From: Gonatopus flavifemur
Taxonomy: Eukaryota; Arthropoda; Insecta; Hymenoptera; Dryinidae
Reading direction: 5' to 3'
Length of the DNA stretch: 64,000 bases
NCBI GenBank assembly: GCA_018340375.1
Contig: JAFFJZ010000084.1
Coordinates: forward strand, 372,001-436,000
Shown here: positions 7,291 through 60,735 of the stretch, piece by piece
How the letters are laid out: each line of letters begins with the position of its first letter
Numbering within the stretch: position 1 is the stretch's first letter
Notes under the pieces: generated by a model
Told to the model about the DNA's origin: nothing
Database searches by the model: none
Seen by the model: only the letters and a program-made list of their open reading frames with translations
Program-made: the position numbers and the translations under genes

Positions 7291-9160
7291 TTCGATTGAA
7301 GATCCCGGTCAACGACTCATTCGTTGGGTTTGAAACTACGCGACTATGATTATAATTTTATACATAAACCCGGAAAATTGAATACAAATGCCGATGCTTC
7401 ATCACGAAATCCTGTAACCGAGGAAAATACGTACAGTTCTGATGAAATTGATCTAGAATCCACTAGAGAAAATGGTTCCTCTGTAGAGAGTGATTCAAAA
7501 ATTTCAGAAATCGAAGATTCAAGTAAAATCTTGACGATGGAAAATAAATCGGGTATTCCCACAAGAACAGATAAATCAGATGAACCTAAATCGGAATGTT
7601 CTGAAGATTCAGAAAAAACGAAGGAAAAAAATGAATTGAGAGAAACAGACCTACCTCGGGAGGAAAATTCTAGAGCACCTTCTTATTTCAATACAAGTTG
7701 GATAGCTAGTCGAACACTGCAAAATTGGAACAACAGGGTCAAAAATCGGAAATCACGAAAACTATACAATCCACTCGAGAAGAGAACCCTCCCGATTCTT
7801 CTTCTACTGAAGATGAATCGGAGGCAAAAGGACATTCACTACCCGCGTACAGGAGACAGAAAAGTGTGTTACCGAGTCTTGGAACGCCACAGATACCTGA
7901 GGTACCAAAGGACGGGGAACACACAGAAGTCGAATGAGTACAATTATAGTAAAAAATTTCATTATCCCCACTCAAGACTGAAACCATGATCGAATGAACT
8001 GAGAAAAAGGATAGCGATGATGAGGTATGTAGACAACACGAAGATGAAGAACCAGAAAGTCGAGAAGAATTGCCTTTCGATTTGAAAGAATTGCAGGGAT
8101 TGCAAGAATCCCTCGGAAAATTCGACAGATCCCTACAAAACAAGAGCCATTTTGTTGAAGAAGAAGAGGAAGAAGAGATTGAAATACGAGTAACGGGAAG
8201 TATCTCAGAAGGAGGATCAATAAGTGATTCAACTGAAGAAATTTCATTTGACCATGATCCCTATGATACAGAGGATGAAGAAATAGAGAGAAAGAATACA
8301 GAAATTAGTCGAAAACGTTGAAAAATTTGAAGATAAACTCGGAGCAAAAGTCGATGAACAAGTTGCACAACCAACCAACCAACTATATTGGCAGATATTC
8401 AGAAAATGAGGAATTAGAAATTAGCAGTAGAACTGACGCAATAGAACATTCGATGATTCATAATCCAACACAAAATCGAACAATAAATACACCTTCCACT
8501 ACATCGGAACCATTGGCCTTATCTACTCCTTTTCCAACCAACCAAACTCAAAAGGGGAAATCGTCAACAACCCCGAAACGAGTAGTATCGTCAATTCCAA
8601 ATCCTCATGGAAATTCTATGAGAATTCAAATCACAGAGTCCATCTCACCTGATATGGATCCTATAAGTCCGTTGAATTCGGGACGCGCTCTACAAAACGT
8701 GAAGATTATATAATATTCCAGAGAAAATATGAAGCTGAAATTAGCGGCGACGAGCTAGCGGTGGATTGATTTAACTTTTGATAGAACTATTTTTTTGGGA
8801 TATTTAAGTAGTTAGATCGCGTTATTGAAAGCCCCCCAATCAATTCTTGATATGAAAAATATTCGAATCCAGTGCAATCAAAAGTTACATCAATCCGCCG
8901 CTAGCTTCGCCGCCGCTAGTTTCAGCTTTGTGAGAAAATTTGACATATCAGAAATCGAATTGGGTTTTTTTCCTGCAAATTGTGAGTTCATCACTCTCAT
9001 TTTAACCGATCATATTGTGAGATACTAGAATTTTGAATTCTGATCAATTGAAAAAGATCGAACCCAAATTGGGGCGAATTTCAGTAACTCGGAGAAGAAA
9101 ATATTGAATTTCCAGTGCTGTATTGGAAGAAGAATACCTTGACAAAATTTCAGAAGAAAA
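7291..9160 (+). pseudogene. RNase H end and long acidic linker before integrase
   Basis: The frame from 7324 reads LRDYDYNFIHKPGKLNTNADA, the usual end of gypsy RNase H, then turns into about 190 residues rich in Glu, Ser, Asp and Lys. Short open frames 7972-8713 continue the same low-complexity character. A linker of this size between RNase H and integrase is longer than usual. Part of the gain is a 203-bp inserted MITE (8729-8931). I cannot tell whether the acidic sequence was once translated as part of Pol. Confidence 0.5.
8729..8931. mobile_element. Foldback MITE, 203 bp, 8-bp duplication
   Basis: The left end ATGAAGCTGAAATTAGCGG and reversed right end ACAAAGCTGAAACTAGCGG start a palindrome covering most of the element. 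The GC-rich GCTAGC blocks face each other. The flanking GAGAAAAT at 8721-8728 and 8932-8939 is an exact 8-bp duplication, which fits a hAT-type element. No coding sequence. Confidence 0.8.
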
Positions 9161-25474: not shown

Positions 25475-26899
25475 ATGGATAGAGGTGTTGGTGAATTGTG
25501 TACACATGATCAAAGCGATGGATATGAAACGGAATCCAAGAATGATACAAAGAAAAGAAACAGAAGTACCAAAAGATTATGTACATTCCGCGAGAATTGG
25601 TTACAAGAAGATATATTTGGCCAATGGTTGAAAGTATGCAGAAATAACAAACACAAAGCTTTTTGTCAGTACTGCAATAAGGAATTTTCTATCGCTCATG
25701 GAGGCCGTACTGATGTTGTTCAACATTCAAAAACAGTTGATCATAATAAGAGGAAACGCGATAGTGCTCCTACAAGATCAATTACGAATTTTTTGCCCAC
25801 ACTTAATTCTGTAGAATGTGACGAAGTATCTCTTGCTGTGCTAATGAAAGGATACCAGTGCGTGAAACATAATTCCTCTTATAATTCAATGGATTGTGGT
25901 AACGAATTGACACGTCAATTATTTGAAGACTCTAAAATTGCTGCAAAATTCACAGGTGGTCGAACGAAAGCAGAGGCAATAGTAACAATATTCTGGGACC
26001 TTATTCCGTTAATGAGATATCGGATTATATAAAATGTGACAACTCTTTTTACTCTGTCAGTACTGACACTTCCAACAAAGGAAACCGAAAGTTTTATCCA
26101 ATTTGTGTTCAATATTTCACCAAAGAAGATGGTATTTGCGTGAAATTATTAGATTTCATTGAAGAACCCCATGAAACTGCTGATGCTATATCAGGTTGCA
26201 GTGTTAAAACTCTGGACAAATTTGGATTAAATATAAGAAATGTATCGGCATTTTGAGCTGACAATACTAATTCCAATTTCAGAAAAAACCGTTCGGCGTA
26301 TACGTTATTGGAGGAACATAATTCTCGAATATTCAAATCTGGCTGTGTAGCTCATGTTGCCAATAATGCTTTTCGACATTCCATGGAAGTTTTAAACGTT
26401 GATGTTCACCGAGAAACATAAAATGTATCTTTTTGGCTCGGTCCAAATTCCTGGCAAATGAAACAGAGAAAACTGTAATGTTTCATATGAAAAATGTAAT
26501 GATTACATATTATGTCATTATTACATTTGATGATATGAAACATTACAGTTTTCTCTGTTTTATTTGCCAGGAATTTGGGACCGAGCCGAACAGTACATTT
26601 CATCTTTCTCAGTGTTGAAACAATTGTTCTCAAAGTCTTTTCTCACTTTTCACATTCAGCTTTGAAAAGGGTTGAGCTACAAGAATTCTCCTCATTTGTT
26701 GATATCGAATGGAAAGAATTGATCAAGCATGTTACAACAAGGTGGCTCTCTCTTGGTCCAGCCATCGATAGAATCATTGAAAACTGGTCAGCTCTTATAT
26801 CGCATTTTTGTTCCCTTGGGGATGAATGTCCACAGAGAATCAAATCATTGTTGCAAATCAATGAATTGATTATTGATGACATAACTGATCACGACAATG
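25475..26899 (+). pseudogene. hAT transposase, 5' part (BED-type finger and core)
   Basis: The ATG at 25475 opens a frame with a BED-like zinc finger around residues 50 to 95 (WLKVCRNNKHKAFCQYCNKEF...HSKTVDH). It runs on through KHNSSYNSMDCGNEL and KFTGGRTKAEAIV. A shift near 26000 is followed by YSVSTDTSNK, which holds the expected first catalytic Asp. A TGA at 26254-26256 precedes ADNTNSNF. A MITE (26407-26614) splits the next block and the Transib begins at 26900. After the MITE, HVTTRWLSLGPAIDRI marks the insertion-domain end. The frame is dead through at least four lesions. Confidence 0.85.
26407..26614. mobile_element. CACTG-end palindromic MITE in the hAT gene, 208 bp
   Basis: It starts CACCGAGAAACATAAAATGT, and its reversed right end starts CACTGAGAAAGATGAAATGT. 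The whole element folds on a centre near 26510. TT flanks both ends (26405-26406, 26615-26616). Removing it with one TT joins GTTGATGTT to GAAACAATT and restores the transposase frame (VDVETIVLK), which fixes the ends exactly. Confidence 0.9.
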
Positions 26900-27359
26900 C
26901 ACAGTGGTGGAAATCAGGAATTTAGTGTTCATAATCTACCACAGGTCGGATTCTCGACTGATTTTGATGAATTTTTTTTTGAAATACTCAGAATTAAATT
27001 CTCAAGAGAACTGTCCATTCCGATTTTTGAATTTTTTTTTTTATCATGAGAATAAATGAACGAATAGTTGAGAAAAATCTTCAATTTCAGGTATTTGAGC
27101 TTGTATCTTTCGGAAAAATCTTGGGATGACGTTACTATTCAGCGAGATTATTGCAGGTATGCTCGTTGAACATGAATAGTTTGAATGATTGCGAATCCGA
27201 TTATTATAAACAATTTTATAAACAATTTTCATGAGGAAATAAGGAATTCTAATAATTCTGGTTGTAAAAACATGTTCTTTCGATTTTAATTACTTGGAAT
27301 CATCATGAGAAACGTTGTTCGTAGAGGGGGAGAGGCAAAAGTTAACATTCATCATTTGT

Positions 27360-27700
27360 TATGAACAATTTTATAAACAAATTCTGAACTGAGAGGTTTT
27401 TTGATGGAAAAAATGTTTTTTTTTTCGTATTTATTGAGAGTTATCATTGAAGTCACAGTCTGTGATAAAATTTCAGCGACACCCAACAATAATATCATTG
27501 TTATTAACAATTTATAAACAAATTCTGACCTGAGAGGTTTTGATTGGGAAAAAAGTGTTTCTCTTTCATATTTATTCAGGGTTATCATTGGAATCACAGT
27601 CTGTAATGAAATTTCAGCAACTTCCAACAATAATCATTGTCATCAATAGTTTTATAAACGAATTATAAATTGAGAAATTTTTGAAAGGCAGACAAATTTC
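27360..27700. repeat. Short array of the 141-bp repeat, left arm
   Basis: Two full units and one diverged unit (core AACCTCTCAGTTCAGAATTTG on the other strand) lie here. The right arm has about six, so the arms differ mainly in repeat number. Confidence 0.85.
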
Positions 27701-27914
27701 ACTTCGTCGTATCTAGTGAGAATCACCATGAACATTTGTAGGCTATGGAGGTATTTCAGATGAAATTGATATTCATAATTATTATAAACAATTTATAAAC
27801 GAATTCTGTACTGAAAAACTTGGTGATAGAAACCTGTATGGAAAATTTTCTTCGAAGAATCTCTGAAAGTTGGAATTTTCTTTGGATATTGCTGGGAGCC
27901 TCAGAGTATTTCTG

Positions 27915-28084
27915 CACTGAGAGAAAATTCTGTACATGAAAATGAGCCCAAGTACAGTTTTTAGTCATTGTAGCTATATTTTCACTATCACCGCGATTTC
28001 CATAGCTATTTCAATGGAAGATATGGCTACTGTAACTACAAAAATGTTTTCGGGCTCAATTTCAGCTACACTCTTCTTTCAGTG
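27915..28084. mobile_element. CACTG-end MITE inside Transib left arm, 170 bp
   Basis: The ends CACTGAGAGAAAATTC and (reversed) CACTGAAAGAAGAGTG are flanked by TG (27913-27914, 28085-28086), with a palindromic interior sharing GAGCCC and TGTAGCTA blocks. The same copy is present in the right arm at 31809-31978. Confidence 0.85.
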
Positions 28085-28833
28085 TGTAAGGTTTTGAGAA
28101 ATTCTAAAAATTTTACATTTTGAGAAGAGAAAAAAATATCTGCTTTACGTATTCAATACTCATTATAATAAAACTGACGATTTTTAAAAAGATTTTTGCA
28201 GAAGTTAGCACTAAACTGTTTGTTCACAGTTTTTCGATGGAAGAAAAATATTCTCTCTTCCGTAACTATTGGAAATCATTGTCGTATAAATGAGACTCAA
28301 TGGAAATTAACATTTCGCATTTTGAACCCTAAAGCTGACCCTTTTGCGGATGGTAGAATCATCATTTTCTCATAGTAATCTTTGAAAATCAAGATGAAAT
28401 TCCTGATTGATAAAAAGTCATATTGATATTGAGTGTGCTAACAATTTTATGGCTTATCGTCCGGGAAGAAAATTTAGATTTGATCAAATCTAACAACTTT
28501 GTGTATCTTTCTTATATCATCAGACATGATGATACATGAGTATACATGATTATACATGATTATACATGATGATATATGATAAAATCTGAAAATTTTAACA
28601 TTCATAAATTAACGATTTGATAAATATATAATGGAACTTACCTTCATTTTCCAATCATGATCAGATTTTTCCTCAACCAATGCACATCACCCATAGGAAT
28701 CATACAGATAACGAATTCACGTGTCCTACTTCCCTCTCGTAGGAAATAACAATTCCCCTAATTCACACCAAACAGTTCACATTATCTCGCTCGTAACAAA
28801 AGCATCATATTCAAGGGGAATTTCAGTGTATAT

Positions 28834-30573
28834 TCAATTAAACTCATTTTCGAGTACAAACTTTTCCATCAATTGTTCAATTCCTGGATCAAGATCAGTT
28901 GGATTTCTGATCCATTCACGCGTCAAAGATGCGATGTAGAGATCCGAGGATACCAGAAGTTTATGGATGAGGTCTTCTACAATATGTAATCGAGAAATTT
29001 TCCGTGTATTGAATTCTCGAATGTGTTTGATATCCTTATTGCGGGCCTCAGAAGCTTCTTCCGAATACATGCTGATAGGCAACAGAAAATTGTCCATAAC
29101 TTTTCCTCCATGTAACAATATTTTGTGGACACTAGAAGGCATGTAGAACCAAGGATACAATTGTACTTGTAGTTCTGCTGTCTTGAAGGCAGAATCATTA
29201 AAAAAATCGGAAGGAATCTTTTCGCTGGTTGTCAACATTTGTAAAATTTGTTCAAACTTTCTTATTGATATTCCGTTCACTCCTGTTATTTTTGCTGTTT
29301 CCTCAGTGTCAGCGAGAAACCTACGAGCTGTATTGCCACAATTGGAATTTCCAGATCCTTGACGTGGTTGATCAACAATCAATCCCATTCTCTCTTTGAA
29401 TTCTGCACAAATTCTTCGTTTAGCATCTTGCATTATTTTTTTATCCTCGGGGTTCTCTACTCTCCACTTACAAATTTCTATTCGGTATGCGATATGCAGG
29501 ATACACTGCATGAATCTTATCCGAGCGTGCAAAGTGGAAAGACCAAATTCCAAATTAGATTTTATAATTGGCTTTTGTTTGAGACGATCCAGATTATTCA
29601 TTTCTGATGGTTTCGCTCTGCAAATGTAACAAGTGGAGGCTGATGGAGTATCAGTCAGTGCCTTACAAACTTTACCATCCACCATAGTTAATTTCATTTC
29701 GGTTTCAATTATATATTTACAGTTCATCGCAGAAATTATAGTGGGCTGAAGTCTCTGAATTTGAGATTTGATGTTATCTATCTCTGATTGAATGATTTCA
29801 TCGGTTTCCTTGGCAAATTTGATCATTATTGGAATACAACGTTTTGCCGAAGAAGTATGAGGATTCATCCATACTATTTCAGATGTGTCTCTTACTCTGA
29901 AGCAGGTAGGTGCCATTGACGATGTCAAAATATGATCGTCCGATAAATTTTCATCACTGAATTTCTGGTTGTATCTCACATCAGTTGACAATCCGTCAAT
30001 TCCATATTTCATTTCCAATTGTAGATGAATAATTTTTGATCTCTTGTCTGGAGTTGGGAGACATAAACTGGGATCTTTGAAGATTCTTTGAATTGAATGA
30101 TCAATGAGACATTGAATTCCGATGTTACTTTGTGCTTCACTTATATCAATTTTCGAAGGATAACATTCTTTTTCTGCTGACAGTATTCGATCATACGAAG
30201 GGTAAATATTCGCATTTCTCAATTTTGCTTGTGATTGAATAATTTCGTATTGATATTTCGATAATTTCACTTCTTCCATGGAAGCTAGAGCTTCTTCTGG
30301 AGAGTATGCAACATGTGATTCTAACTCAGATTGCTTAGAAATGTTGCAATTCTTGATACTATCAGCATTTAAAAGAGTCATGATATCGTTTGCTATTTTT
30401 TTCTGTCCATTTTTACGCAAGACTCGAAGAAATGTCTCCTGAATTTCAGCGGCTGTGAAATTTTCTTCAATGGACAATGATCTTCGTCTCTTAGTCGGAG
30501 TAGAAGTATCCTCAAATGTTTCGGAAGAAATCATTCTTTTCCCTGGCTTTGCTTTGAATTCCGAGAAAGACAC
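28834..30573 (-). CDS. Transib (RAG1-like) transposase, 579 codons open
   Basis: This is a DDE-type transposase predicted to cut at CACAGTG ends in the nucleus. Residue numbers count from 30573, which is GTG; the first ATG is residue 14 and the frame stays open upstream to near 30670 without an ATG, so the true start is missing or on another exon. Asp193 lies in GIDGLSTDVRYNQKF, Asp299 in TMVDGKVCKALT, a CxxC in STCYICRAKPSEMNN (residues 315-318), GLIVDQP then GNTARRF (413-419), LYPWFYMPSSVHKILLHG (472-489), and the Glu cluster in SEEASEARNKD (504-514). These match Transib landmarks and, more remotely, the RAG1 core. There are no internal stops. Activity is doubtful because the N-terminus is absent. 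Confidence 0.87.
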   Translation of the reverse strand: MSFSEFKAKPGKRMISSETFEDTSTPTKRRRSLSIEENFTAAEIQETFLRVLRKNGQKKIANDIMTLLNADSIKNCNISKQSELESHVAYSPEEALASMEEVKLSKYQYEIIQSQAKLRNANIYPSYDRILSAEKECYPSKIDISEAQSNIGIQCLIDHSIQRIFKDPSLCLPTPDKRSKIIHLQLEMKYGIDGLSTDVRYNQKFSDENLSDDHILTSSMAPTCFRVRDTSEIVWMNPHTSSAKRCIPIMIKFAKETDEIIQSEIDNIKSQIQRLQPTIISAMNCKYIIETEMKLTMVDGKVCKALTDTPSASTCYICRAKPSEMNNLDRLKQKPIIKSNLEFGLSTLHARIRFMQCILHIAYRIEICKWRVENPEDKKIMQDAKRRICAEFKERMGLIVDQPRQGSGNSNCGNTARRFLADTEETAKITGVNGISIRKFEQILQMLTTSEKIPSDFFNDSAFKTAELQVQLYPWFYMPSSVHKILLHGGKVMDNFLLPISMYSEEASEARNKDIKHIREFNTRKISRLHIVEDLIHKLLVSSDLYIASLTREWIRNPTDLDPGIEQLMEKFVLENEFN

Positions 30574-31808
30574 AACGAAATCAGTACCTAACCACTTTTC
30601 GAATTTCTTCTCAAATTGACTCTTCGTATAGAAACACTGTTTCCATATTTTGTTGCTAGTCGTTGATATTATTCAATTCGAAAAAACAAGGATTATCGAT
30701 TCAAAACCGTGATAGATGAGTTAATTTCGTACAGACAATCTCACATATGATGCTTCTGATCGTGTTTTGTTATAAATTCGCGTGGACCCAAAGTTATGGA
30801 CAATTTTCTGTTGCCTATCAGCATGTATTCGGAAGAAGCTTCTGAGGCCCGCAATAAGGATATCAAACACATTCGAGAATTCAATACACGGAAAATTTCT
30901 CGATTACATGTTGTAGAAGACCTCATCCATAAACTTCTGGTATCCTCGGATCTCTACATCGCATCTTTGACGCGTGAATGGATCAGAAATCCAACTGATC
31001 TTGATCCAGGAATTGAACAATTGATGGAAAAGTTTGTACTCGAAAATGAGTTTAATTGAATATACACCGAAATTCCCCTTGAATATGATGTTTTTGTTAC
31101 GAGCGAGATAATGTGAACTGTTTGGTGTGAATTAGGGTAATTGTTATTTCCTACGAGAGGGAAGTAGGACACGTGAATTCGTTATCTGTATGATTCCTAT
31201 GGGTGATGTGCATTGGTTGAGGAAAAATCTGATCATGATTGGAAAATGAAGGTAAGTTCCATTATATATTTATCAAATCGTTAATTTATGATTGTTGAAA
31301 TTTTCAGATTTCATCATATATCATCATGTATAATCATGTATAATCACGTATACTCATGTATCATCATGTCTGATGATATAAGAAAGATACACAGAGTTGT
31401 TAGATTTGATCAAATCTAAATTTTCTTCCCGGACGATAAGCCATAAAATTGTTAGCACACTCAATATCAAAATGACTTTTTATCAATCAGGAATTTCATC
31501 TTGATTTTCAAAGATTACTATGAGAAAATGATGATTCTACCGTCCACAAAAGGGTCAGCTTTAGTGTTCAAAATGCGAAATGTTAATTTCCATTGAGTTT
31601 CATTCATACGACAATGATTTCCAATAGTTACGGAAGAGAGAATATTTTTCTTCCATCGAAAAACTGTGAACAAACAGTTTAGTGCTCACTTCTGCAAAAA
31701 TCTTTTTAAAAATCGTCAGTTTTATTATAATGAGTATTGAATACGTAAAGCAGATATTTTTTTCTCTTCTCAAAATGTAAAATTTTTAGAATTTCTCAAA
31801 ACCTTACA

Positions 31809-31978
31809 CACTGAAAGAAGAGTGTAGCTGAAATTGAGCCCGAAAACATTTTTGTAGTTACAGTAGCCATATCTTCCATTGAAATAGCTATGGAAATCGC
31901 GGTGATAGTGCAAATATAGCTACAATGACTAAAAACTGTACTTGGGCTCATTTTCATGTACAGAATTTTCTCTCAGTG
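31809..31978. mobile_element. CACTG-end MITE, right-arm copy
   Basis: It is the mirror copy of 27915-28084, same length and same flanks. Its presence in both arms means it was in the element before the arms were duplicated. Confidence 0.85.
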
Positions 31979-32259
31979 CAGAAATACTCTGAGGCTCCCA
32001 GCAATATCCAAAGAAAATTCCAACTTTCAGAGATTCTTCGAAGAAAATTTTCCATACAGGTTTCTATCACCAAGTTTTTCAGTACAGAATTCGTTTATAA
32101 ATTGTTTATAATAATCATGAATATCAATTTCATCTGAAATACCTCCATAGCCTACAAATGTTCATGGTGATTCTCACTAGATACGACGAGGTGAAATTTG
32201 TCTGCCTTTCAAAAATTTCTCAATTTATAATTCGTTTATAAAACTATTGATGACAATGA

Positions 32260-33100
32260 TTATTGTTGGAAGTTGCTGAAATTTCATTACAGACTGTGAT
32301 TCCAATGATAACCCTCAATAAATATGAAAGAGAAACACTTTTTTCCCAATCAAAACCTCTCAGGTCAGAATTTGTTTATAAATTGTTAATAACAATGATA
32401 TTATTGTTGGGTGTCGCTGAAATTTTATCACAGACTGTGGCTTCAATGATAACTCTCAATAAACGAAAAAAAAAACATTTTTTCCATCAAAAAACCTCTC
32501 AGTTCGGAATTTGTTTATGAAATTGTTCATAACAATAATATTATTGTTGTATGTTGCTGAAATTTCATGACTGACTGTGACTCCAATGATAACTCTCAAT
32601 AAATACGAAAAAAAAACGAAATTTTTTCCATCAAAAAAGCTCTCAGTTCAGAATTTGTTTATAAAATTGTGTATAACAATAATATTATTGTTGGATGTTG
32701 CTGAAATTTCATGACTGACTGTGACTCCAATGATAACTCTCAATAAATACGAAAAAAAACGAAATTTTTTCCATCAAAAAACCTCTCAGTTCAGAATTTG
32801 TTTATAAAATTGTTTATAACAATAATATTATTGTTGGATGTTGCTGAAATTTCATGACTGACTGTGACTTCAATGATAACTCTCAATAAATACGAAAAAA
32901 AAACATTTTTCCCATCAAAAAACCTCTCAGTTCGGAATTTGTTTATGAAATTGTTTATAACAATAATATTATTGTTGTATGTTGCTGAAATTTCATGACT
33001 GACTGTGACTCCAATGATAACTCTCAATAAATACGAAAAAAAACGAAATTTTTTCCATCAAAAAACCTCTCAGTTCAGAATTTGTTTATAAAATTGTTCA
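32260..33100 (+). repeat. Expanded 141-bp tandem array
   Basis: Units containing GATAACTCTCAATAAATACG begin near 32307, 32448, 32590, 32731, 32873 and 33015, a step of about 141 bp. Later units are nearly identical to each other, the sign of recent local expansion. Confidence 0.9.
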
Positions 33101-33561
33101 TAACAAATGATGAATGTTAACTTTCGCCTCTTCCCCTCTACGAACAACGTTTCTCATGATGATTCCAAGTAATTAAAATCGAAAGAACATGTTTTTACAA
33201 CCAGAATTATTAGAATTCCTTATTTCCTCATGAAAATTGTTTATAAAATTGTTTATAATAATCGGATTCGCAATCATTCGAACTATTCATGTTCAACGAG
33301 CATACCTGCAATAATCTCGCTGAATAGTAACGTCATCCCAAGATTTTTCCGAAAGATACTAGCTCAAATACCTGAAATTGAAGATTTTTCTCAACTATTT
33401 ATTTATTCATTCTCATGATAAAAGGAAATTTGAAAATCGGAATCAACAGTTTTCTTAAGAATTCAATTCTGAGTATTTCAAAAGAAAATTTATCAAAATC
33501 GGTCAAGAATTACGACCTGTGGTGGATTATGAACACTCAATTCCTGATTTCCACCACTGTG

Positions 33562-34336
33562 CAATGGTGAAGTGATCATCACACTCCATTTTGTTAGCAA
33601 TGTCTACTCAATTTTTGAATCAGCTAGTGGAAGTTCGCAGACTGAACAAACTACATCAACTGAGCTTTTCGACATTATGAGCACCCTGTTGAATAAAATA
33701 CAAAGTCGACTTGAAGACAAATTTTTTGGATCTTTCACTGCTCAAAAATTTTCAATCATTAAAAAAGGCCTCAAGGACCGTCTACTAATCAACTTTTGTC
33801 GTTTCCTAGAAACGATTAACTACTTGAATAAATGGTTCAATTTTTCGGGAGATAATCCATTATGTAGTATTAGATTGTTCAAATTATCCGAGGTTCCAAA
33901 ATTTACGGATTATCAAAATGCTGTGTCCACGTTGAAACTTGATGATGATATAACAATTGATGATATGTATTAAGAATTTTGTATCGTCAAGGGTTTGATG
34001 TCAATAATATATACCAAAGATATGGACGTTGCTTCCAAATGGAAGTATATATTCCAAAATTGTCCAGAAACTTTACCGAATTTGTTCAAAGTAGTTTCCT
34101 TCTGTCTGAGTATACCATCATCGACTGCATTTGTTGGAAGAGTTTCTTCACAAGTGACTTTGGAGTGGACCAACATCCAGAATGGATGTTCTACAGGATT
34201 AATAGAAAATGAACTCATAATGTCATTCAATTCTTCCGGGCTTACTTGTACGCAATTCATGGAAAAGATTAAGATGTCTAAAGATTATGAGAGAATTATG
34301 AAAAATGTATCATCAGATATGAAATATGAATCTTAA
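33562..34336 (+). pseudogene. hAT transposase, 3' part (dimerisation domain)
   Basis: The coding sequence continues from the Transib insertion point: VIITLHFVSNVYSIFESASG, then to about 33973. A shift near 33975 leads to the frame ending at 34336, with CLSIPSSTAFVGRVSS and LIENELIMSFN. That is the C-terminal hAT dimerisation block, where SIPSSNAFVERVFS is the family pattern. Here Gly replaces the usual Glu. The right terminus of the element follows 84 bp downstream. Confidence 0.85.
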
Positions 34337-39484: not shown

Positions 39485-41453
39485 TTACACATTAAGTCCA
39501 TAGGGGCGTTTTGGCGTGTCTGATTCTGTAGACAGTTGATTCAACGGGTAGAGTTGTTCCTTCTGTTCGTTGTCATCTGTCGGAAGTTCGGAGTCCATGG
39601 TGGTAACCACGGTTTCCTTGATGAGTTTGCGTTGATTGATATGCAATAATAGATTGGTTGCAGAATCCCATAGCGAAACCACTAAATAGGGTGACCACCA
39701 TACACAGAATGCAGTGCAAATACGTGTATTACTGTATCAATGATCAGTTTGATGATTTTTACTGTCAAAATTATTCCAAGAATTCCTGCGCTGAATGTTC
39801 CAAAGGTACTGAATCCGATCCAGAGCTTATTCCACGTTGAATTGGCAATGTGTTCTAGGGTTTTTTTATCTTGTATTGAGCTCCAGCTCAATCCTTGAAG
39901 ATCAACGGGCTCTCCAGTGACGGCACGAACGATATTATTGACGATCGCAGGTTGCTCAAAGGGTGACATTATATATTTGTTCAGTCTTTCAATGCCCTTT
40001 TCAGTGTAAATCCCCTGTTCGACGAGATTTCCTGGGCTTTGATACGTCCAAGTATGTGTTTTGAGTGGTTCCATTGTGTATGGAGCAAGCGTTTCCGTAG
40101 CGAAAGGTAACATTTTGTACCATGTACCGTCCATTCCGTACATTGGTGGCACCATACTATTACATGGAACTTCGGTTCCTTGTTTTTCAAGAATATGGGT
40201 TTTGGGCATCATGAAAAGTTTCGTGTTAACTTTTATAACTGGCAATTCTTGATAACATCGGTTGGTTGTGGCAACTCTCACTTCGACGGATATGCATTTT
40301 ATTAATCTAATAACTTTCCCGGTGATCATAGCCGTGAACCTGGTCCTTTTTGGGAATTATAGGCAAATTCTTCTGGTTTGATGAGTGCCGAAGTTTGTGC
40401 ATTTCTCAAAATTTCTTGTTCCAAACGACATCTTTGGATGATTACGTCTCTATAGAGGTTATTTATCTGGATCCTGATGAACTTTTCCACGTCAACGAAC
40501 TTGCTGTTCACGTGAGTGAAGGGCTCCAGGTCCTGGGTCTTCATGAGCTGCGGTCTGGAGAAGGAATTTTCACGTCTTCCTTCCAATATGAAAAGCTTGG
40601 GATGCTGTGTTTTTATCAGTTGATAACCGTAGAGATATCGTGATTGTTCGGCGGTGAGGGCAAAAGTTACGTCTTCAGTTTTCACTGAATAAATTGTTTC
40701 CGGATATTGGTCTGAAAGATCTTGTAATTTGGAAGAGAATCCTTCATACAAAACTCCATAGCGATTGAATTTGCAGGTTTTTTCAGGTATTACATTCCAG
40801 TAGGCATGTCCTCCTAGGATGTCCACACAGTTTCCAGATGAAAGCGTGCATTGAGTTCCGGATGATAGGATTATTTCGCTCATTTCTAAATCAGTTTTTG
40901 CGTAATAGTCGATCAAGGTAATTCTGACTGTACCCTGTACGATAACATCACTCCAAGTTCCGTATGGGTCGGCGTAGAAAGTTGCTTCGCACTTTCCTTC
41001 GTTAGTGACCTTCCCAGCGATAGTGATTGCATAACTGTTCGTAACGTTGATTCTAATGCCGTATATAGATGTTGATCGAATTATCAGTCTTCCGGTATCG
41101 TGAAGATCTCTGCATTCCTCTCTTGTTGTCTCCATGATGTACTCGGCATATCCTCCATTTACTGCAGAGTTGTGTGAAAACATTCCGCAATGATTGATCT
41201 CACGGAAAATTTCTACTTTACACATTTGCACATGTACATTTCCAAAGTCTATTATTTGCAATAACTGCATGTACGTGGTGGTTTCATTAACTCTCGGTTC
41301 AGCGATATTGCAATCACCTATTTTATTCAATGATATTGTAGTTATGTTCGCGTTAGGGGCTGCACAATCCTATGCTATCAGTCCATCCGTTGATCCTGGG
41401 TGTAGCCCAATGTGGATGATGGCGAATCGCCACAGAATTGTCTGCAACGCCAT
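39485..41453 (-). pseudogene. Env-like viral glycoprotein gene, broken
   Basis: Two main frames, 41453-40326 and 40329-39682, plus a short tail frame 39682-39485, line up as one type I membrane glycoprotein of about 600 residues. The ATG at 41453-41451 starts a signal-like stretch ended by an in-frame TAG (41370-41372). The cysteine-rich ectodomain follows, with N-glycosylation sites. The second frame, shifted by one base, has a helical region and a strong membrane segment near its end. The cysteine pattern suggests the chuvirus-like glycoproteins often captured by insect BEL/Pao or gypsy elements. This is by pattern only. No pol gene adjoins it, so it is either an orphan of an LTR element or an integrated viral gene. 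Confidence 0.65.
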
Positions 41454-41899
41454 GTTACGCCTGGGGGTGGGTTGAGTTTAATATTTGTAGAAAAAAAATG
41501 TTGTAAATTCTACAATATAAGTTGTTATAAAACTAAAATCAGGCATCAATATGTTGATATATTTGAATTTGGATGCCGCAAGCAAAACTGAATCTGTTTC
41601 TCTGATATAAAAGAGGTTAATTATGTATTTGTGTATTATGCTGTGTTTTTCTTTGTCATATTCAACTCAACCTAGGTATTTTTATACCGCAGTTCAGGCA
41701 AAAATTCATCCTGTTACTATTATGTTGAAATTTTCGAAAATCGGTACCACAGTGTGAACAAAAATTAATTCCTTTAGAAATTACTATTGATGAATTATCA
41801 GTTGAAATTTGTGTATAGGGCCTTCTCAATGTTTTTGTTGCAGTGCTAATATCTCTAAATTGAGCGGCAGCTCACGCAAGAATATATATAGGTTATATA
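41454..41899. other. No gene seen
   Basis: This is AT-rich sequence upstream of the Env-like gene and left of the first rosa-like element. If an LTR or leader preceded env it is not recognisable. The last two bases, TA, are the target duplication of the next element. Confidence 0.4.
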
Positions 41900-43927
41900 C
41901 AGGGTGGGGCATTCAAAGTGTCGCGGGCGTTTTTTCCAAAAATAAAATGAGATACGAGAAAATTTTTCGGACAAAAATTGTAGGGTATCGAGGGGGACAT
42001 CCGATGGTGGCCTTGGCTTTGACCTCAAATCTCATCTTCAAGGGCATTCTGAGGTCAACTCTTGTTCTTTGAATAGCATCTCATATTTTTGACTGCAGAT
42101 TTGGATTCTAGGTCAAAAACCAAGAAACTTTTGTCTGAACCATTTTCCTGAAATCCGCAAAGATGGCGCCCTAATCGATATTGTTCCGAACTGAATCTGA
42201 CATTAGAATAACTCGAAAACGAAGGGTCTTGGAGGAGAATGTTTCGGACAAAAGTTGTCTGATTCCAAGGGGGACCCCTTGAACTGAAACGGAGGTGATG
42301 GGGTATAACAGACAAAACACAACACATTTCAATCGTCTACATCACTTGGATAATTTTAATGCAGTAGATGCTCAAAATGATGGCCTTCGACTTCAATACA
42401 CATTTCAAAACGTTTTACAAAAGATTGCTGAACTCGTGCTAAAATATCTTCATTGATGCTCGCGCATGCATTGATGATTCGTTGACGCATATTCTCAGGT
42501 GTAGTCGGTGCTTGTTGATAAACTGTATCTTTTATGTATCCTAATAAAAAAAAATCTGGAGAAGTAAGATCCGGAGAACGGGCAGGCCAATGAACTGGTC
42601 CACGACGTCCTATCCATCGTCCAGGATAATCTCTGTCCAATATTTCTCGAGCTGTGACTGCATAATGGGATGGACAACCATCGTGTTGATACCACATATT
42701 CAATCGTTCCTGAATCGTTCTTCAAGTAATGTTGGAAGTACTTGATCGAAGAAATGTCTGTACTTCTCTCCATTTAGCGTATCTGCGATGAAGAACGGTC
42801 CAATTACTCGAGATCGAAAAATACCACACCAAACATTCACAGCCCATTGCCTTTGATGCTCTACTTGACGTAACCATCTTGGATTTTCTGTCGCCCAGTA
42901 ATGCATATTATGTCGATTTACTTGACCATGATTGGTGAACGTCGACTCATCAGAAAATAATATGTTGATGAAGTTGTTATTGTGCATTTGCGCTAGACCC
43001 CATCGACAAAACTGTACACGATTTTCGAAATCATCACCGTGAAGGTCTTGATGCAAACAAATGTGATACGGATGGAATTTGTGACGTTTCAGTATTCGAA
43101 GAACACTTCTTCGAGAAATTCCCGAATGGAGTTCAATTTCACGAGAGCTCACGTGTGGATTATTGGCTACTGCAGCTAGTACATTAACTTCCGCATTTTC
43201 TCCGCTAACAGTTCTCATTCGATGTCGTTTTTCCCTTGTAACACTTCCCGTTTCTGAGAATAATTTTGTAATGCGTTGAAAATACCTAATGGATGGCGTT
43301 GTTCTTTCAGGAAATCGTTCTGCATACAAGTCATATGCTTGTCTGGGGTTCTTATGCACTTCACCGTAAATGTAGATCATATCGATCTTTTCAGAAACCG
43401 TGTATCGGATATCCATGATTTTCAATTTGTCATAAACCAAGTAATAATCAAATGTAACTGACAAACTGACTTTCAAAATCGTGAATTTTCACTGAACCCC
43501 GTCGTTTGTTTACATCGCGTGAGCTCTGAATGGTGGTAATGTAGACGATTGAAATGTGTTGTGTATTGACAACTTTTGTACGGAACATTCTTTTGCAAGA
43601 CCCTTCGTTTTCGAGTTATTCGAATGTCAGATTCAAAATGGAACAATATCGATTAGAGCGCCATTTTTGCGGATTTCAGGAAAATGGTTCAGACAAAAGT
43701 TTCTTGGTTTTTGACCTAGAATCCAAATCTGCAGTAAAAAATATGAGATGCTATTTAAAAAACAAAAGTTGATCTCAGAATGCCCTTGAAGATGAGATTG
43801 GAGGTCAAAGCCAAGGCCACCATCGGATGTCCCCCTCGGTACCCTACAACTTTTGTCCGAAAAATTTTCTCGTATCTCACTTTATTTTTGGAAAAAACGC
43901 CCGCGACACTTTAAATGCCCTACCCTG
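41900..43927 (-). mobile_element. rosa-like element A (Tc1/mariner, D,D41D)
   Basis: The element starts CAGGGTGGGGCATTCAAAGTG and ends in its complement, with TA at 41898-41899 and 43928-43929. The inverted repeats are very long: about 41900-42346 against 43536-43927, the left arm having some 50 bp that the right lacks. The transposase lies between them on the minus strand. Length 2028 bp. Confidence 0.9.
42356..43416 (-). pseudogene. D,D41D transposase of element A, one frameshift
   Basis: The start is MDIRYTVSEK at 43416. The N-terminal helix-turn-helix (ERTTPSIRYFQRITKLF) is followed by a second one (SSREIELHSGISRRSVLRILKRH). Catalytic Asp residues are in LFSDESTF, YQHDGCPSH and SPDLTSPDFFLLG, with 41 residues between the second and third. 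The frame changes near 42703, where GAACGATTCAG is followed by GAACGATT, so an 11-bp tandem duplication is the likely cause. Otherwise the protein of about 350 residues is whole. Confidence 0.92.
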
Positions 43928-43933
43928 TATATA

Positions 43934-45966
43934 CAGGGCGTTCCATTTGAAACAGGACAGCTGAATAACTCTTCAGGGAATGGAGGAGGAAAAAAATTGT
44001 ACAGGTAAAAGTTGTAGGGTTCGAAGGGGGCCATAAGATGGTGACCTTGAATTTGACCTTGAGGTCAATTTTGAGCATGATTGATGGTCAAAGTATGTTT
44101 TTTCAAATGGAAAACCCTACGTTCGACCTCAGAAATGGAAAGAGCGGAAAATTTTACGTCCGAATATGTTAACATACCAGGTCACTTAGAGGTCATTTGA
44201 AGGTCAAAAAACCATTTTCCATGGATTTTCACGGGAAAGCCTCAAACGAGTTGTTTCTCTGACCAAAGTTATTGAAGTTAAAGTGAAACCCCACGTTTCG
44301 ACCTCGAATTGAAAGTCAACAGAACTAACCTTCAGAGTTCACTCTTCATATCAGTACGAAAATGATCATTAGGAAGTTTTCATCGTTTACGGTGTAAGTG
44401 CGAGTTCAAAATGGTTTATTCACCTAACGAATGTGTTGATATTTTAATGATCTTGGGTGAGTGTCGCGGAGTGTATCAAAGAGCGTCACAATTGTACAGA
44501 GAGCGGTTTGGAGATCGGCAGCACACCCTTCTCCAGAAGTCATTCGCCAAGTCAAAAGAAATTGTCGACAAGGAAGGATTGGTCAACGCCGAAACAATCA
44601 AGGTTTCAACTTCAACGACCCTCGACGCGTTGCTGTTTTAGCAATAATACACATGAATCCTCATGTTAGTTTACGTGATATTGAACGCGATTTGGGTATT
44701 CCACGCAGTCCGGCACACAGAATTCTACAAGCTGCTCAATATCATCCGTACCACATCACACTGACCCAAGAATTATCTCAACAAGATATGCAGAATCGGG
44801 TTAACTTTTGCCATTGGGCTTTACAGAGGTTGAACGAAGCGCCCGATTTCTTTCGATATGTTCTTTTCAGTGATGAATCAACGTTTCAAAGTACTGGCTT
44901 GTTGAATCGTCACAATAGCCACTATTGGTCAGCGCAAAACCCGCACTGGACTCAACAAGTTGATCATCAGCATCGGTGGAGCATGAATGTTTGATGTGGA
45001 ATGCTAGACAATCAAGTTATTGGGCCGTCTTTTCTTGATGGAACTGTTAACGGTCCTAATTATCTACAGTTTTTACAGAATGAATTACCAGTTCTCATGG
45101 AAGATGTGACATTAGCAACTGGGCAGAGGATGTGGTATTAGCAAGACGGTGCACCACCACACTTTGTTCGATGTGTGAGGGATTATCTAAATATCCTTTT
45201 CCCAATCGTTGGATTGGTCGAGGTGGATTTGTAGTGTGGCCGGCAAGATCTCCTGATCTCACCCCTCTAGATTTTCATTCGTGGGGTTACGTGAAGAATG
45301 TCGTTCATACCAACCGACCAACAACACCTGTGGATCTACAACAACGCATCAGATACGCAATTGCGAATATTCGTGCAGAAGTTTTTCAGTCTGTTCTTGG
45401 AAACTTTCGACGCCGGCTGGAGTTATGTATTGAAGTGAATGGCGGTCAATTCGAACATCTCCTGCAATAAGTGTGTCTTACCCGTCAACGGATTTGTGCC
45501 ATCTGTGATTATAAAACGACGAACTGGAAAAATAAATAATTTTTGAATTATCGTTTCAAATTTGGCATTCATTATCGTTCTTAAGGTCGAATTCAAGGTC
45601 GAAACGTGGGGTTTCACTTTAACTTTGATAACTTTGGTCAGAGAAATGACTCGTTTGAGGCGTTTCCGTGAAAATCCATAGAAAATGGTTTTTTGACCTT
45701 CAAATGACCTCTAAATGACCTGATATGTTAACATATTCGGACGTAAAATTTTCCGCTCTTTCCATTTCTGAGGTCGAACGTAGGGTTTTCCATTTGAAAA
45801 AACATACTTTGACCATCAATTATGCTCGAAATTGACCTCAAGGTCAAGTTCAAGGTCACCATCTTATGGCCCCCTTCGGACCCTACAACTTTTACCTGAA
45901 CAATTTTTTCCCCCCTCCATTCCCTCAAGAGTTATTCAGCTGTCCTGTTTCAAATGGGACGCCCTG
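43934..45966 (+). mobile_element. rosa-like element B (Tc1/mariner, D,D41D)
   Basis: It starts CAGGGCGTTCCATTTGAAAC, six bases (TATATA) after element A ends, and ends in GGGACGCCCTG before TA at 45967-45968. The inverted arms are about 43934-44312 and 45590-45966. The transposase is on the plus strand, opposite to A. The two elements differ too much to be copies of one recent event. Confidence 0.9.
44411..45470 (+). pseudogene. D,D41D transposase of element B, several lesions
   Basis: It begins MVYSPNECVDILMILGECRG. A shift near 44515 moves to the frame with NPHVSLRDIERDLGIPRSPAHRIL and LFSDESTFQSTGLLNRH. An in-frame TGA at 44992-44994 (where WCG is expected) and TAG at 45139-45141 (before QDGAPPH) follow. 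Another shift near 45195 leads to SPDLTPLDFHSWGY and the end. Counting across the shift, about 41 residues separate the second and third Asp, as in element A. More decayed than A. Confidence 0.88.
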
Positions 45967-46205
45967 TATTAAAAAAATTATGTTGAGGGAATGAAAATTC
46001 TTATAATTATATATATATTTTTGTTTCAATTTTTCTTTTGAAAATGATTATCAAATATATACAGAAAATATTCAGAAAAAGGGTAATAGAAATTTCGAAA
46101 AGCGGAAGTCAAAATGTTCTTCGAATTCAATATAAAATGAATTTGAATATATGTACATGTGTAGGTGTATTAGGGGTCTTTCTTTTATGTATATATATAT
46201 ATATA
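45967..46205. other. 3' side of the second gypsy element, truncated
   Basis: On the minus strand this follows integrase directly and should begin the 3' LTR, but only about 240 bp remain before element B. An (AT)n run lies at about 46189-46206. No LTR end can be called. Confidence 0.35.
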
Positions 46206-48000
46206 CTATTCTCTGCGATTATCGTATAAGATAATCCTATCTACGGGAACTATTCTTTCACGTTTCCCAATTTGTATTTTGATTGTTTTATCGTCGACAA
46301 TTTCTAAAATTCTGTAGGGTCTTTCATATAGATTTTCTAATTTCTTTGGTTCCATTCCTTTCTTCAGGAGTATTAAATCTCCAGCCCTGAACTCTATAAC
46401 TCTAGTCGATTGATCATAATAACGCTTAGATTTTTCTTCGACTATTCGGAGATTTTCTCTGGCTTCACGCTGGTATCTGTCCAAGAGGGCCATGAGTTCA
46501 ATTAGATATTCATCGTATGTCCTTAATTGTTTATACGGTGGTAAGGATTGGCTGGAAGGCAACAAGGGAAATTTTCCAAATACTAACTCATGAGGGGTTC
46601 GTTTTGTGCTTTCATGTATACTAGAATTATATGATAGCATTGCTAGTTCAACCCATTGATCCCATCCGGAATCCCGCGAAGTGAATTGTCTGAGATATTC
46701 AGCTAAAACAGCGTGTGATCTCTCTAAGGAACCGTTAGTTTGGGGATGGAAAGCAGTAGTGTTCCATTGTCTCATAGTTGGTCTTTTGGTTATGGTTTTC
46801 ATAAATTTTGAGATGAAATTAGTTCCCTGATCAGTTAGTATTATTTTCGGTGCTCCATAAATACACACGAAATTCTTTAAAAAGGCGTATGCAATTGTTG
46901 GTGCAGTTGCATTTGATAATACAACCCCGGTACAATGTTCAGTCGACAGACATTGCATGGTGAGGATGTATCGATTTCCTCCTTGAGTGGGAGGGTTTAT
47001 GGGTCCCACGATGTCTAGAGCGATTTTTTCATAGGCATAACCGGGCGTATCGGTGATTATCATAGGTTGTCTATTTCTCGTTCGGATAACCTTCTTCAAT
47101 TTACATTGAAGACATCCGGGAATATAATATTGGACATCTTCTTTGAGGTATTCCCAGTAATAGTTTAGGCGTACACGGTTTAAAGTTTTCGCTACGCCTT
47201 TGTGTCCTCCCATGGTGGAGTCATGAGCTTCTTCAATTAGACTCCTCCTTTCCGATATTCCAGGTATTTTCGCTATTCCAAGGCAGAATGTTAGCCTTAT
47301 AGGGATGTGGCAAAATTCTTTATTGAATTCGATCACGATTCTGTCCCACTCGAGTTCATTAGTGAATTCTATTTTTGGGATGCAGCAGCTACTCATTTCA
47401 TTGAATCTCATGAATAACTTCATTTCTCGAATCGAATTTTGTAAATCCATCATGGTTTCTCGAGGCGTGGGGGTCCTATCAGATGGTTCTACATAAAGAT
47501 CAAACCACCATCTGATCACCATCATTCGTCCTAAATTGGTTGGTTGAAAACATTCCATATCGAATTTCTCGGAAAAGTTTTTGATAATTATTTCAAAAGG
47601 TTTTCCCTGATCATTGAGAAAAAATACATAATTATCCTTTTTTAGTTCTGACGGGTCTCTCGATTCGTATATATTCGACCCTAAAATTAATTTATTTACA
47701 TCTTTGTACAATTTTTCGTATGTTTCTTCGTCATCTGTTTCTCCGATTTCTGACTCTTCATTGTTTTCCATATTTACAGGTGAATCATTGTGAAAATTCT
47801 CATTATATCCTCCAACAGTGTCTCTAGTGGGACGTTCGCGATACGAGCTTTCGTTTTGAGACTCATAATTTGAAATTTCTTCTTCAAAATCATGTCGATT
47901 CATATCATGCTCCTCGTAGTCTTGATTTCCATGGCGATCGATCATTGGTTCTTGGTAGTCCGAATTTTCCGTAGAATTTCGTTCTTGAATGAATGGGATA
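46206..48000 (-). pseudogene. integrase of the second gypsy element
   Basis: The open stretch 47945-46206 has a zinc-binding part (HDSTMGGHKGVAKT...CLQCKLKK), a core with LDIVGPINPPT, ILTDQGTNF and NGSLERSH giving the three acidic residues, and a C-terminal part with GDLILLKKGMEPKKLENLYERPYRIL. It looks intact as a domain. About 200 acidic residues precede it in the same frame. A shift near 48000 separates it from the RNase H side. Integrase would join element cDNA to chromosomal DNA. Confidence 0.9.
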
Positions 48001-48249
48001 CCTTTCGTTGTTGAATTTTTCTATGAATCCGTCGAGCTTTTCAAAGGATTCTTTTTCAATTTGTCGATTTTTTCTTCCAATTTCGTCACGATATTGCTGC
48101 CCTTTCTCAGTTAATTTAGGTATCCTCGAAGATCGCCTGGGTTGAGTTTCAATGTTATAAATTGTTTGAATATTCTCAATTATTTCTTCCCTATCATCAT
48201 AATTTTCGGATTTTTCGTTTGGAATCGGAGGATTCCGGGGAAGAGCGTC

Positions 48250-54629: not shown

Positions 54630-55012
54630 TATACACATATATTTTCGAGTTACGAAATATATACGTGATACCGAAAGAACATGCAAGAATATTAGGTAAA
54701 GAAACAGAAATTCATGCGTTGGATATAGAAAATACCATAAGATCTGAATATGTTTGTTTTAGATTTCATTTATTCTTTAAAAAGACAAAAGCAAATGAGT
54801 AATATATATATGTATATTCATACATATATATCCCAAGTATATCATGTGACCATATTTCCTATATACCACGTGACCATATTAGATATTTAAAAATTGGCAA
54901 AAATGATTTGATACATTCCGATATGTATTCGTACCATGGGGATAAATATAAATAAAAAATATAACTTTCATTGATATTGGAAAAATCATGAACTTATTCA
55001 AATGATGAATCT

Positions 55013-55530
55013 GATAGGGATGAATATTTGAAAACACATGAATGAAATATGTATGTACATCCATATACAAACGTTTTTTCTCCAACATGCAAGTAATTAA
55101 AAATTACCTCTAAGGAAATTAAGTTGAAAAACATCAATAACACATGGAATCGACAAAATTATTTTCATTCAAAAAAATTATTTTCGTCTCCCAGGTTATG
55201 CGGGATCTTGATGGCCGTTTGGGGACCACCAGCCATCATCGGGAACGCGCATCAATTCTCTTATAAACTTCCGATGAGAAGATTTTTGGAGTGCAGAAGA
55301 GATTTGAACCTGGATCCTACCTATCACCTATCATAACAATCTAGTCACCTAACGACCTAACCTACACCGACGTGTTTTCCGTTGAAACAAAAATGTTGTA
55401 CATATAGTTGAATGTCGGCAGTGGGGAGAAAAGCTCCATTCAATATGACGCAGGACCGGATCAAAAATTGATGGAGCCCTGAGGAATTTGAAATTCGAGG
55501 GGCCCTTTAAGAATTAATGAATTTTGTCTT
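55013..55530. other. Segment present only in the left arm, tRNA-like
   Basis: It has no counterpart in the right arm, so it was inserted after the arms formed, or lost from the right. On the minus strand around 55280-55365 the sequence GGATCCAGGTTCAAATCTC resembles a Pol III B box, and GTTAGGTCGTTAGGTGAC could be an A box, as in tRNA-derived SINEs. The fold is not convincing as a functional tRNA. Confidence 0.35.
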
Positions 55531-56364
55531 GTTTTTCTTGAAATCAAATTATCCACAAGAACAAAGTGAAATATGATTTACATATCGCGTATCCGAATGC
55601 GAACTGAGCATATATGAAAATATGCATGAAGTTTGAATAATTTTTTTCTTGAGAAAAAACTGAAACATGTATTTTCATATTTTTCAAGGGGATACTTGAT
55701 AAATATATTCAATTCAATAGAGTGCATGAGATTTCCGCATGTTCAATTGAAAATTCGTTCCAATGAACGATTTACACCTTATCGATATACATGAAAAGTG
55801 AAATTTGGAACAAAGTACTTCTAGAGTACAGTTGATTCCTTACTTGATGTGATTTCGAATCGAATGGCATATTATGACAAATTTTTGAAGTAATTTTTGA
55901 CAATAAATCTTTGGGAAGTATCTGTCGTACCAATAGTTTACGATAATCAGAGTAGAGAAAACTCCCTGCGCTCCCAATATATCAGTCAATTTTTCCATCG
56001 AATAAAATTTTGTGGATGTCTACCACTTATTCGCAGGAGATTTATTCCACAATGTGCCTAGTTATTTTGAAAATAACATCTCTCCATTTCACTTGCTAAT
56101 CACTTGAAGAATCATTGCAAGTGTACAAAAGTTATGATGATGGTACATTCTTCCATAGAATGCAACTTTGGATCTTCGTCACACTATGAAAGAAGAATAA
56201 AGTTGTGGAACATTGTTTTCTTGATATACTGATATTCGCAAATACTTTCCCAGAAAAAATTCAATTACTATCCCTGTTGAGTGATCACCTAATCTATGGA
56301 CACTGATCAAGTATTCGTTGGCAAATTATTTCAAAATACAACACGCGATGGATGTCATAGATTA

Positions 56365-56564
56365 CCCTAGTTAAAGTCTCTTAGCAATTCATGAGAAAAT
56401 GTTCTTGATGAGCTTGTGAATATATATTCATACGTATTCATGATGCCTCATCAGCACAGATTCATAGGACTTTGTGGTTTACTTATGCATGTCCTGTTGC
56501 AAAATCCATAATTGTTCATAGTGAAAGCATTTTTTTATGACCCCCTATGCGACTTTAACCAGGG
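56365..56564. repeat. Palindromic module CCCTAGTTAAAG, first copy
   Basis: It starts CCCTAGTTAAAGTC and ends GACTTTAACCAGGG. It separates an arm segment from its inverted copy. A relative lies inverted at 57326-57525, sharing TGAATATATATTCA and TTACTTATGCATGTCCTGTT. Confidence 0.75.
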
Positions 56565-57325
56565 CAGGTAATTACTCAGCAGAGACAGTCATTGAATTTC
56601 GTCTGGAAAAGTATTTGAGAATATTAGTATATCAAGAAAACAATGTTCCACAACTCTATTCGTCTTTCATAGAATGACGAAGATACAAAGTTGCATTTTA
56701 TGAAAGAAAGTACTATCATCATACCTGTTGTCCCATGCAATGATTTTTCGGGTAATCAGCAAGTGAAATAAATAGATGTTATTTTTCCAATGACGAATCT
56801 GTATTAACTAAAATAACCAGGCATATTGTTGGAATAAATTTCCTGCAAATCAGTAGTAGGTATCCACAAAACTTTGGTCGATGGAGAAATTGACTGATAT
56901 ATTGGGACCGCAGTGAGTTTTCCCTAATAATAATTCGTTCAAGTCTAATTATTTATCATTACATGTGTAGTTCAATGCAGTTCCTTTGGAGTAATTTTCG
57001 ACAGTAAATGTCTGGTAAGTATCCATTGTGCCAATAGTTCATGGTAATCAGAGTAGAGAAAACTCATTGCAGTCCCAATATATCAGTCAATTTCTTCATC
57101 GACTAAAGTTTTGTGGATACCTACTATTTATCCGCAAGAAAATTTATTTCAACGAAGGCCCTGGTTATTTCAGTTTATAAGAATTTTTCATTGTAGAAAA
57201 AACATATCTTTGTTACTCTATGAAAGAAAAATAAAGTTGTGGAACATTGTTTTCTCGATATACTAATATTCTCTAATACTTTTCCAGACAAAATTCAATT
57301 ACTGTCTCTGCTGAGTAATTACCTT

Positions 57326-57525
57326 CCCTAGTTGAAGTCGCATAGCAAGTCATAAAAAAATGTTCTCACTATGAGGCATTATGGATTTTGGAACAGGACA
57401 TGTATAAGTAAACCACAGAGTCCTATGAATCTGTGCTGATGATGCATCATGAATACGTATGAATATATATTCACAAGCTTATCAAGAACATTCTCTCATG
57501 AATTGCTAAGACACTTCAACTAGGG
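57326..57525. repeat. Palindromic module CCCTAGTTGAAG, second copy
   Basis: Inverted relative of 56365-56564, starting CCCTAGTTGAAGTCGC and ending CTTCAACTAGGG. Confidence 0.75.
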
Positions 57526-57535
57526 TAATCTATTA

Positions 57536-60553: not shown

Positions 60554-60735
60554 TTCATTTTTTTTTGTCATCTCTCTGGTGAATAATTAAATTTCACATC
60601 CGATTATTATTTTTTATGTCATTACATCGTCATGTTATCAATAATCCTGATCTTTCGGAATGCACTTGCGGATTCGACCAAGTACAGGTCCGAGTCGATT
60701 GGAAATTTCCCAAATATTCGTGTCCATGAGATATA

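Follow-up and report, generated by a model that had tools for sequence, protein, structure and literature searches.

Introduction

Transib elements are cut-and-paste relatives of RAG1, the enzyme to which vertebrates owe the diversity of their antibodies, and RAG recombination depends on the pairing of two different signals. Giant inverted repeats with tandem repeats are a feature of Drosophila Foldback (FB/NOF), which belongs to a different superfamily, and the palindromes of primate Y chromosomes, which are not transposons, have arms that are kept alike by conversion. As far as the available text of the respective reports goes, Drosophila transib1-4 are 2.2-2.9 kb long with inverted repeats of 40-45 bp (PMC10299278), and Hztransib is 3,518 bp long, with 'long TIRs' (terminal inverted repeats) and one deduced protein (PMC1852546). 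Galileo, on the same footing, carries long inverted repeats that are repetitive inside and expand as neighbouring inner sequence is recruited in the form of inverse copies; tandem-repeat numbers are unequal between its arms, the arms reach about 1.26 kb, and its longest-armed copies are without a transposase frame (PMC3573991). Here we describe a 6,662-bp Transib at positions 26900-33561 of a 64,000-nucleotide stretch of the genome of Gonatopus flavifemur (contig JAFFJZ010000084.1, positions 372,001 to 436,000, forward strand; hereafter the window), together with its relatives in the same genome. Our data make it probable that the element belongs to a multi-copy Transib family in which a palindrome is the unit of transposition. 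Among the titles and abstract openings of the literature searched, which included few subscription papers and did not extend to Repbase, we found no palindromic or two-gene Transib.

Results

Using the left arm of the window element as query, we searched the host genome (636 Mb, 402 contigs) and obtained 80 matches. Of the 934 first-look candidates 40 were scored, so that copy numbers are lower bounds. An earlier note on this element, made from its sequence, had proposed a search for further two-armed copies; the arm revealed 23 copies besides that in the window, at least 24 in total, and 26 loci were retrieved. Copies and loci are given below by our own handles. Both ends are in view in 20 copies and one end in four; for three of the 20, the ends were combined from two loci separated by 11-15 kb, and the flanks match in C262 and C369 but not in C323e.

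In every one of the 20 two-ended copies, both arms are of the 3' type. Their target duplications are exact in 14 cases, match at four of five bases in three and are absent in three (C392a, C379, C323e), and a heptamer resembling CACAGTG, the heptamer motif of the recombination signal sequence, stands at 39 of the 44 ends compared. When the ends were clustered, a two-cluster cut placed left and right ends in the same class in 17 of 17 copies, the clusters tracking subfamily and not side; at finer resolution two ends separate from the rest, one from L021 and the only end of L027. Both element ends are 3'-type termini, and the unit is bounded by two alike ends. A shorter group (six of the 20 two-ended copies, roughly 84% identical) is without gene sequence.

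The earlier note had described one Transib "turned into" a foldback. Taken alone, the window copy would suit such a one-off conversion of a single ordinary Transib at this locus, since it shows the 5' part of a gene between two copies of the 3' side. However, 19 further two-ended loci show two arms as well, and the layout of a sister family is similar, which makes this account hardly credible. Fold-back reads or wrong joins during assembly might also have created palindromes: giant inverted repeats are common in the window, and an inverted flank at locus L012 (see below) is 100% identical to its source. Against this stand the exact target duplications, arms that differ by 0.3-7.1% in eight copies, and the unequal tandem-repeat numbers of the window arms. 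Because the layout is found at many loci, with their own target duplications and diverged arms, we consider it very unlikely that the overall layout stems from assembly error.

The structure of the fuller copies was mapped against a 4,217-bp half-element cut from L018. C369 consists of half, centre and half, one of the halves being interrupted by a nested insertion of ~6.8 kb, and C392c has the same layout with losses. In five copies (C369, C68, C392a, C323e and C392c), each side retains about 1.2 kb or more of the 2-kb gene. Leaders on both sides of the centre were found in C369 and C392c only, around the same loop, and in C392c (L027) two native starts lie 304 bp apart and point away from each other. 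The centre, an asymmetric loop ~50 bp long, contains a near-perfect 15-bp inverted repeat; whole or nearly whole, the loop is present in six copies (C369, C392c, C68, C379, C323e and C35b). The fullest copies are head-to-head palindromes with two transposase genes around a short asymmetric loop. Most other gene-bearing copies, including that in the window, have lost the centre plus part of one or both genes. Given that its fuller relatives are built as head-to-head palindromes, the window copy is most readily interpreted as a derivative with a deleted centre; it is missing most of this centre, some 1.9 kb from one half, and the native start.

A DNA search with the centre and leader, in which all 16 first-look candidates were scored, gave 27 matches. 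As the query is partly palindromic, its first ~28 bases match the opposite strand trivially, and such matches were not counted as a second half. Four of the places found lie outside the inspected set: three are short matches, and the fourth, at C186:2453559, is a new copy. C343 (L039) represents a half-element in a degraded state. The arm and centre/leader searches gave no convincing native 5' terminus at the inspected loci: C35b (L024) and C186 (L028) are cut in the centre, and no family end lies beyond within the stretches inspected, barring an isolated CACTGTG in L024. These DNA-level searches, behind which stands no genome-wide protein search, revealed no parent element with a single gene. 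We also considered that two complete elements might have been joined head to head, with their 5' ends central; this was rejected, as no terminal motif was seen in the centre by eye.

To study the relationship between arms, we used a tree built from 26 arms of 17 copies (1,231 columns; short group excluded; three arm pieces contributed by C392b). Arms grouped by copy in all eight two-armed copies, and five cherries are starred. Seven of the nine cherries united arms of the same copy, compared with a mean of 0.27 and a maximum of 5 in 100,000 name shuffles, and by raw distance the own arm was nearest in six of the eight two-armed copies. Patchy gene conversion between the arms of a copy is suggested by these sister arms as their simplest explanation, its main competitor being the repeated formation of new palindromes. 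In the window element, the arms diverge by 12.4% in the outer 161 bp and by 1.3% in the inner 2,042, a change-point score reached by none of 500 permutations, and we take this break to mark the putative limit of a converted tract. A native 5' repeat in the outer 161 bp of one arm was rejected as an explanation, since across all copies the ends belong to a single class, structured by subfamily, and show similar between-copy divergence.

At L012 and L035 on C323, an inverted copy of the left flank lies inside the element; it takes in at least 1,613 bp at 100% identity, of which 355 bp belong to the terminus and 1,258 bp to the flank, and runs to the edge of the inspected sequence. The inverted left-side copy at L012 may be due to recent template switching between inverted arms in gap repair, or to an assembly fault. 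L010 (C392:4130092-4136986) is a near-perfect palindrome whose arms differ by 0.3% over 1,231 columns; it has no target duplication and is perhaps a rearrangement breakpoint.

The repeated formation of palindromes has to be weighed at this point. Each copy might have become palindromic independently, if an ordinary Transib was repaired after excision with a template switch between its ends, and this repeatedly, so that the layout is convergent. Mostly, the arms of one copy are sisters in the tree, the inner breakpoints vary among copies, and the inverted copy of its own left terminus and left flank at L012 (at least 1,613 bp, 100%) is what such switching would be expected to leave. On the other hand, C369 and C392c have the same loop between two leaders, a loop found again in four further copies; the window copy and one half of C369 have a 179-bp deletion in common; both sister-family loci have the same inner junctions; and no ordinary donor was seen. 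We therefore regard independent formation as unlikely.

The sister family consists of L040 (C362) and L041 (C323), with a transposase 78-79% identical to that of the window. Stop to stop, the L040 frame has 662 codons and the L041 frame 644; the former has Y at the second catalytic position and the latter ends early, and we claim no activity for either. In both, an inverted 3' arm with a gene piece (about residues 349-420) follows beyond the leader. Because the two loci are collinear over 4,088 bp at 96%, with common inner junctions, the two-armed layout seems to have moved as a unit. The main arms are 94-97% alike within copies and other repeat registers 87-89%, and the genes of the two families have about 81% DNA identity. 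The L041 element extends over C323 42331807-42336802, with flanks matching at four of five bases; for L040 the inspected sequence stops short of the right end. One L040 arm contains a nested mariner-like frame of 348 codons (named by eye; 357-1400).

The features of the window element are listed in Table 1. Its termini are CACAGTGGTGG at 26900 and CCACCACTGTG at 33561, with CACAGTG at both ends and a CAATG duplication on each side. Of 2,203 aligned columns between the arms, 46 are mismatched; a further 572 columns are gaps, almost entirely due to the 141-143-bp tandem repeats (2.4 units left, 6.3 right); tandem-repeat number also accounts for most of the difference in arm length (2,205 versus 2,773 bp). 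An ungapped match between the arms covers 1,701 nt at 98%, and inverted arms of such length are not a product of chance. Each arm holds the final ~87 codons of the transposase with the stop, followed by the 3' untranslated region (UTR), and no native 5' end is present. On termini, 5-bp duplication, the 3' origin of both arms (given there as 2.2 and 2.8 kb) and loss of the native 5' end, our analysis agrees with the earlier note. The inverted arms make up 4,978 of the 6,662 bp, an architecture of Foldback type in form, not in lineage, and the distinct 5' and 3' ends that flank one gene in a conventional Transib are lacking.

The transposase frame matches HzTransib with an expectation value (E) of 8.5e-102 over residues 122-585. 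The window residues D226, D332 and E542 align with D126, D225 and E436, the catalytic residues given for HzTransib in the available part of the report (PMC6941560), so that D, D and E are all kept. This homology, the 5-bp duplication and the heptamer-like ends place the element in the Transib superfamily, as the earlier note had it; the transposase is not of the P type found in Galileo and the P superfamily. The long frame described in the earlier note is likewise present, with 612 codons stop to stop or 566 from the first ATG, and not 579. Pfam gave no family for the window protein at E <= 0.1; on relatives, its RAG1 model scored 24.4 bits (P0001) and 25.6 bits (P0003) at a cut-off of 25. We found 457 relatives at E <= 1e-5, of which the full-length ones start ~50-60 residues before the window frame. 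Searches with the transposase alignment gave 68 pattern stretches in viral_contigs and 12 in genome_contigs, none of them a relative.

Other copies of the family have the leader followed by the native ATG with MDPFKV-like codons (~59 codons). The window frame is without these first codons because of the 179-bp deletion, which left the native ATG out of frame and which is common to the window copy and the left half of C369 (L018). The predicted protein could begin at ATG 30534, upstream of all HzTransib-aligned sequence. An intron at 30673-30788 was rejected, as other copies show at this place the leader, native ATG and ~59 codons lost in the window. Within the first family, the window copy alone combines a frame of more than 600 codons with the full set of three catalytic motifs. 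In L018 the three motifs lie in a frame of 400 codons; in L020 the frame opens at the native start, runs for 637 codons and is shifted ahead of E542.

Rejoining the flanks with a single CAATG copy restores an open frame that spans the insertion site. Its 255-residue reading has a single homologue at E <= 1e-5 (P0121, 42%, E = 1.2e-44, 90% covered) and no Pfam family at its cut-off. Upstream in the interrupted gene region lies a small hairpin (26443-26578; arms of 46 nt, 98% complementary), probably a miniature inverted-repeat transposable element.

Table 1. Features of the Transib element and its insertion site, in window coordinates.
Feature	Position	Strand
Target site duplication, left copy CAATG	26895..26899	.
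Left arm, from terminus inward via 3' UTR, stop and last ~87 codons; 2,205 bp; heptamer CACAGTG 26900-26906	26900..29104	+	
Left-arm subterminal 141-bp tandem repeats, 2.4 units	27344..27682	.	
Transposase frame, 612 codons stop to stop; first ATG 30534, giving 566 codons	28834..30672	-	
Scar (approximate) of 179-bp deletion, which removed native N-terminal codons; native ATG now out of frame	30642..30646	.	
Native 5' leader remnant of transposase gene; approximate limits	30647..30771	-	
Asymmetric central loop, first ~17 bases; remainder of centre deleted; approximate limits	30772..30788	.	
Right arm, 3' side inverted, last ~87 codons to terminus; 2,773 bp; heptamer 33555-33561	30789..33561	-	
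Right-arm subterminal 143-bp tandem repeats, 6.3 units	32211..33106	.	
Target site duplication, right copy CAATG	33562..33566	.	
Interrupted open frame, left part	26539..26899	+	
Interrupted open frame, right part; in phase once element and one duplication copy are removed	33567..33973	+	

The window contains further repetitive elements. At 59472-63640 we found a giant palindrome with arms of about 2 kb, mostly 95-100% alike, and a 214-bp spacer; by eye, its ends are CAGTGATGCC and its 8-bp duplication is ATTATACC, as in hAT elements. A large inverted-repeat element at 54849-59359 has outer arm pieces 83-92% alike and internal direct and inverted repeats. Two abutting elements (41894-43933 and 43931-45969) have inverted repeats of ~370 bp, and each contains a Tc3-like transposase piece, one of them also DUF4817. 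Two overlapping glycoprotein frames at 39682-41369 match Pfam Monjiviricetes_fusion (E = 1e-76 and 5e-114), and an integrase-domain frame is located a few kb away at 46206-48020. Together, these frames are perhaps a retroelement with a chuvirus-type envelope.

Discussion

Overall, our data point to a Transib family that moves as a palindrome. Its copies apparently go back to an ancestral element with a pair of transposase genes arranged head to head. The transposase would pair two alike 3' ends, mobilise the whole palindrome and leave a 5-bp duplication. Palindrome centres would often be lost, giving asymmetric centre deletions like that of the window copy, and the arms of one copy may correct each other patchily via gene conversion. 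The least certain step is the origin of the first palindrome, for which the anatomy of the centre allows a guess: a broken 5' end might have folded back on the short inverted repeat of the leader, and copying out through the 3' end would then have replaced the native 5' end.

Several observations weigh against transposition as a palindrome. Both leaders are retained in two copies only, and no copy of the first family has two unbroken genes; two-gene function is therefore read from decayed copies. No duplication flanks three copies, and C392a, of all palindromes the most perfect, is one of them. Since the genome searches were made at the DNA level only, there could be a conventional relative whose leader has diverged, and the centres of the two families were compared only by eye. 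The shared loop is weaker evidence than it appears, because a loop beside a single leader also fits an ordinary 5' region. In L024, the homology ends in the loop, and three of the five bases flanking its lone CACTGTG (8336-8342) match the left duplication; this motif is probably a chance match. Finally, when the nearest arm was determined by stretch, measured from one arm, the own arm was nearest in 3/17, 6/20, 4/6, 3/6, 5/6, 1/5 and 5/5 copies from the end inward.

A more far-reaching possibility, which we offer tentatively and do not favour, is a long-lived RAG1-related lineage whose native form is a two-gene head-to-head palindrome with a shared central promoter and alike ends, in which each gene serves as repair template for the other. 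The palindrome would then be older than the split of the two families. If this were true, it would have helped to keep transposase frames open, at the cost of frequent centre loss.

If functional, a Transib that transposes by means of two alike 3' ends, in the absence of any 5' end, would mean that the enzyme needs no end asymmetry. Moreover, the palindrome makes arm-to-arm conversion measurable inside a transposon, and the copies form a natural centre-deletion series for the study of palindrome instability in an animal genome.

Primate Y-chromosome palindromes resemble the family in its probable arm conversion and differ from it in being no transposons. Drosophila FB/NOF has similarly giant, repetitive inverted arms and is of another superfamily. 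Galileo (P superfamily), by the available text on it, is alike in its repetitive long arms and unequal tandem repeats and unlike in its unrelated transposase. Drosophila transib1-4 belong to the same superfamily by name and differ, by the same measure, in size and in their 40-45-bp repeats. To these elements applies the statement of the earlier note that known Transibs have short inverted repeats; it does not extend to Hztransib, which in the accessible description has 'long TIRs'. Hztransib is like the window element in its homologous DDE transposase, 5-bp duplication and 'long TIRs', again as far as that description goes. However, it is a 3.5-kb element with one protein, whereas the element described here has coding 3' arms at both ends and relatives with two head-to-head genes.

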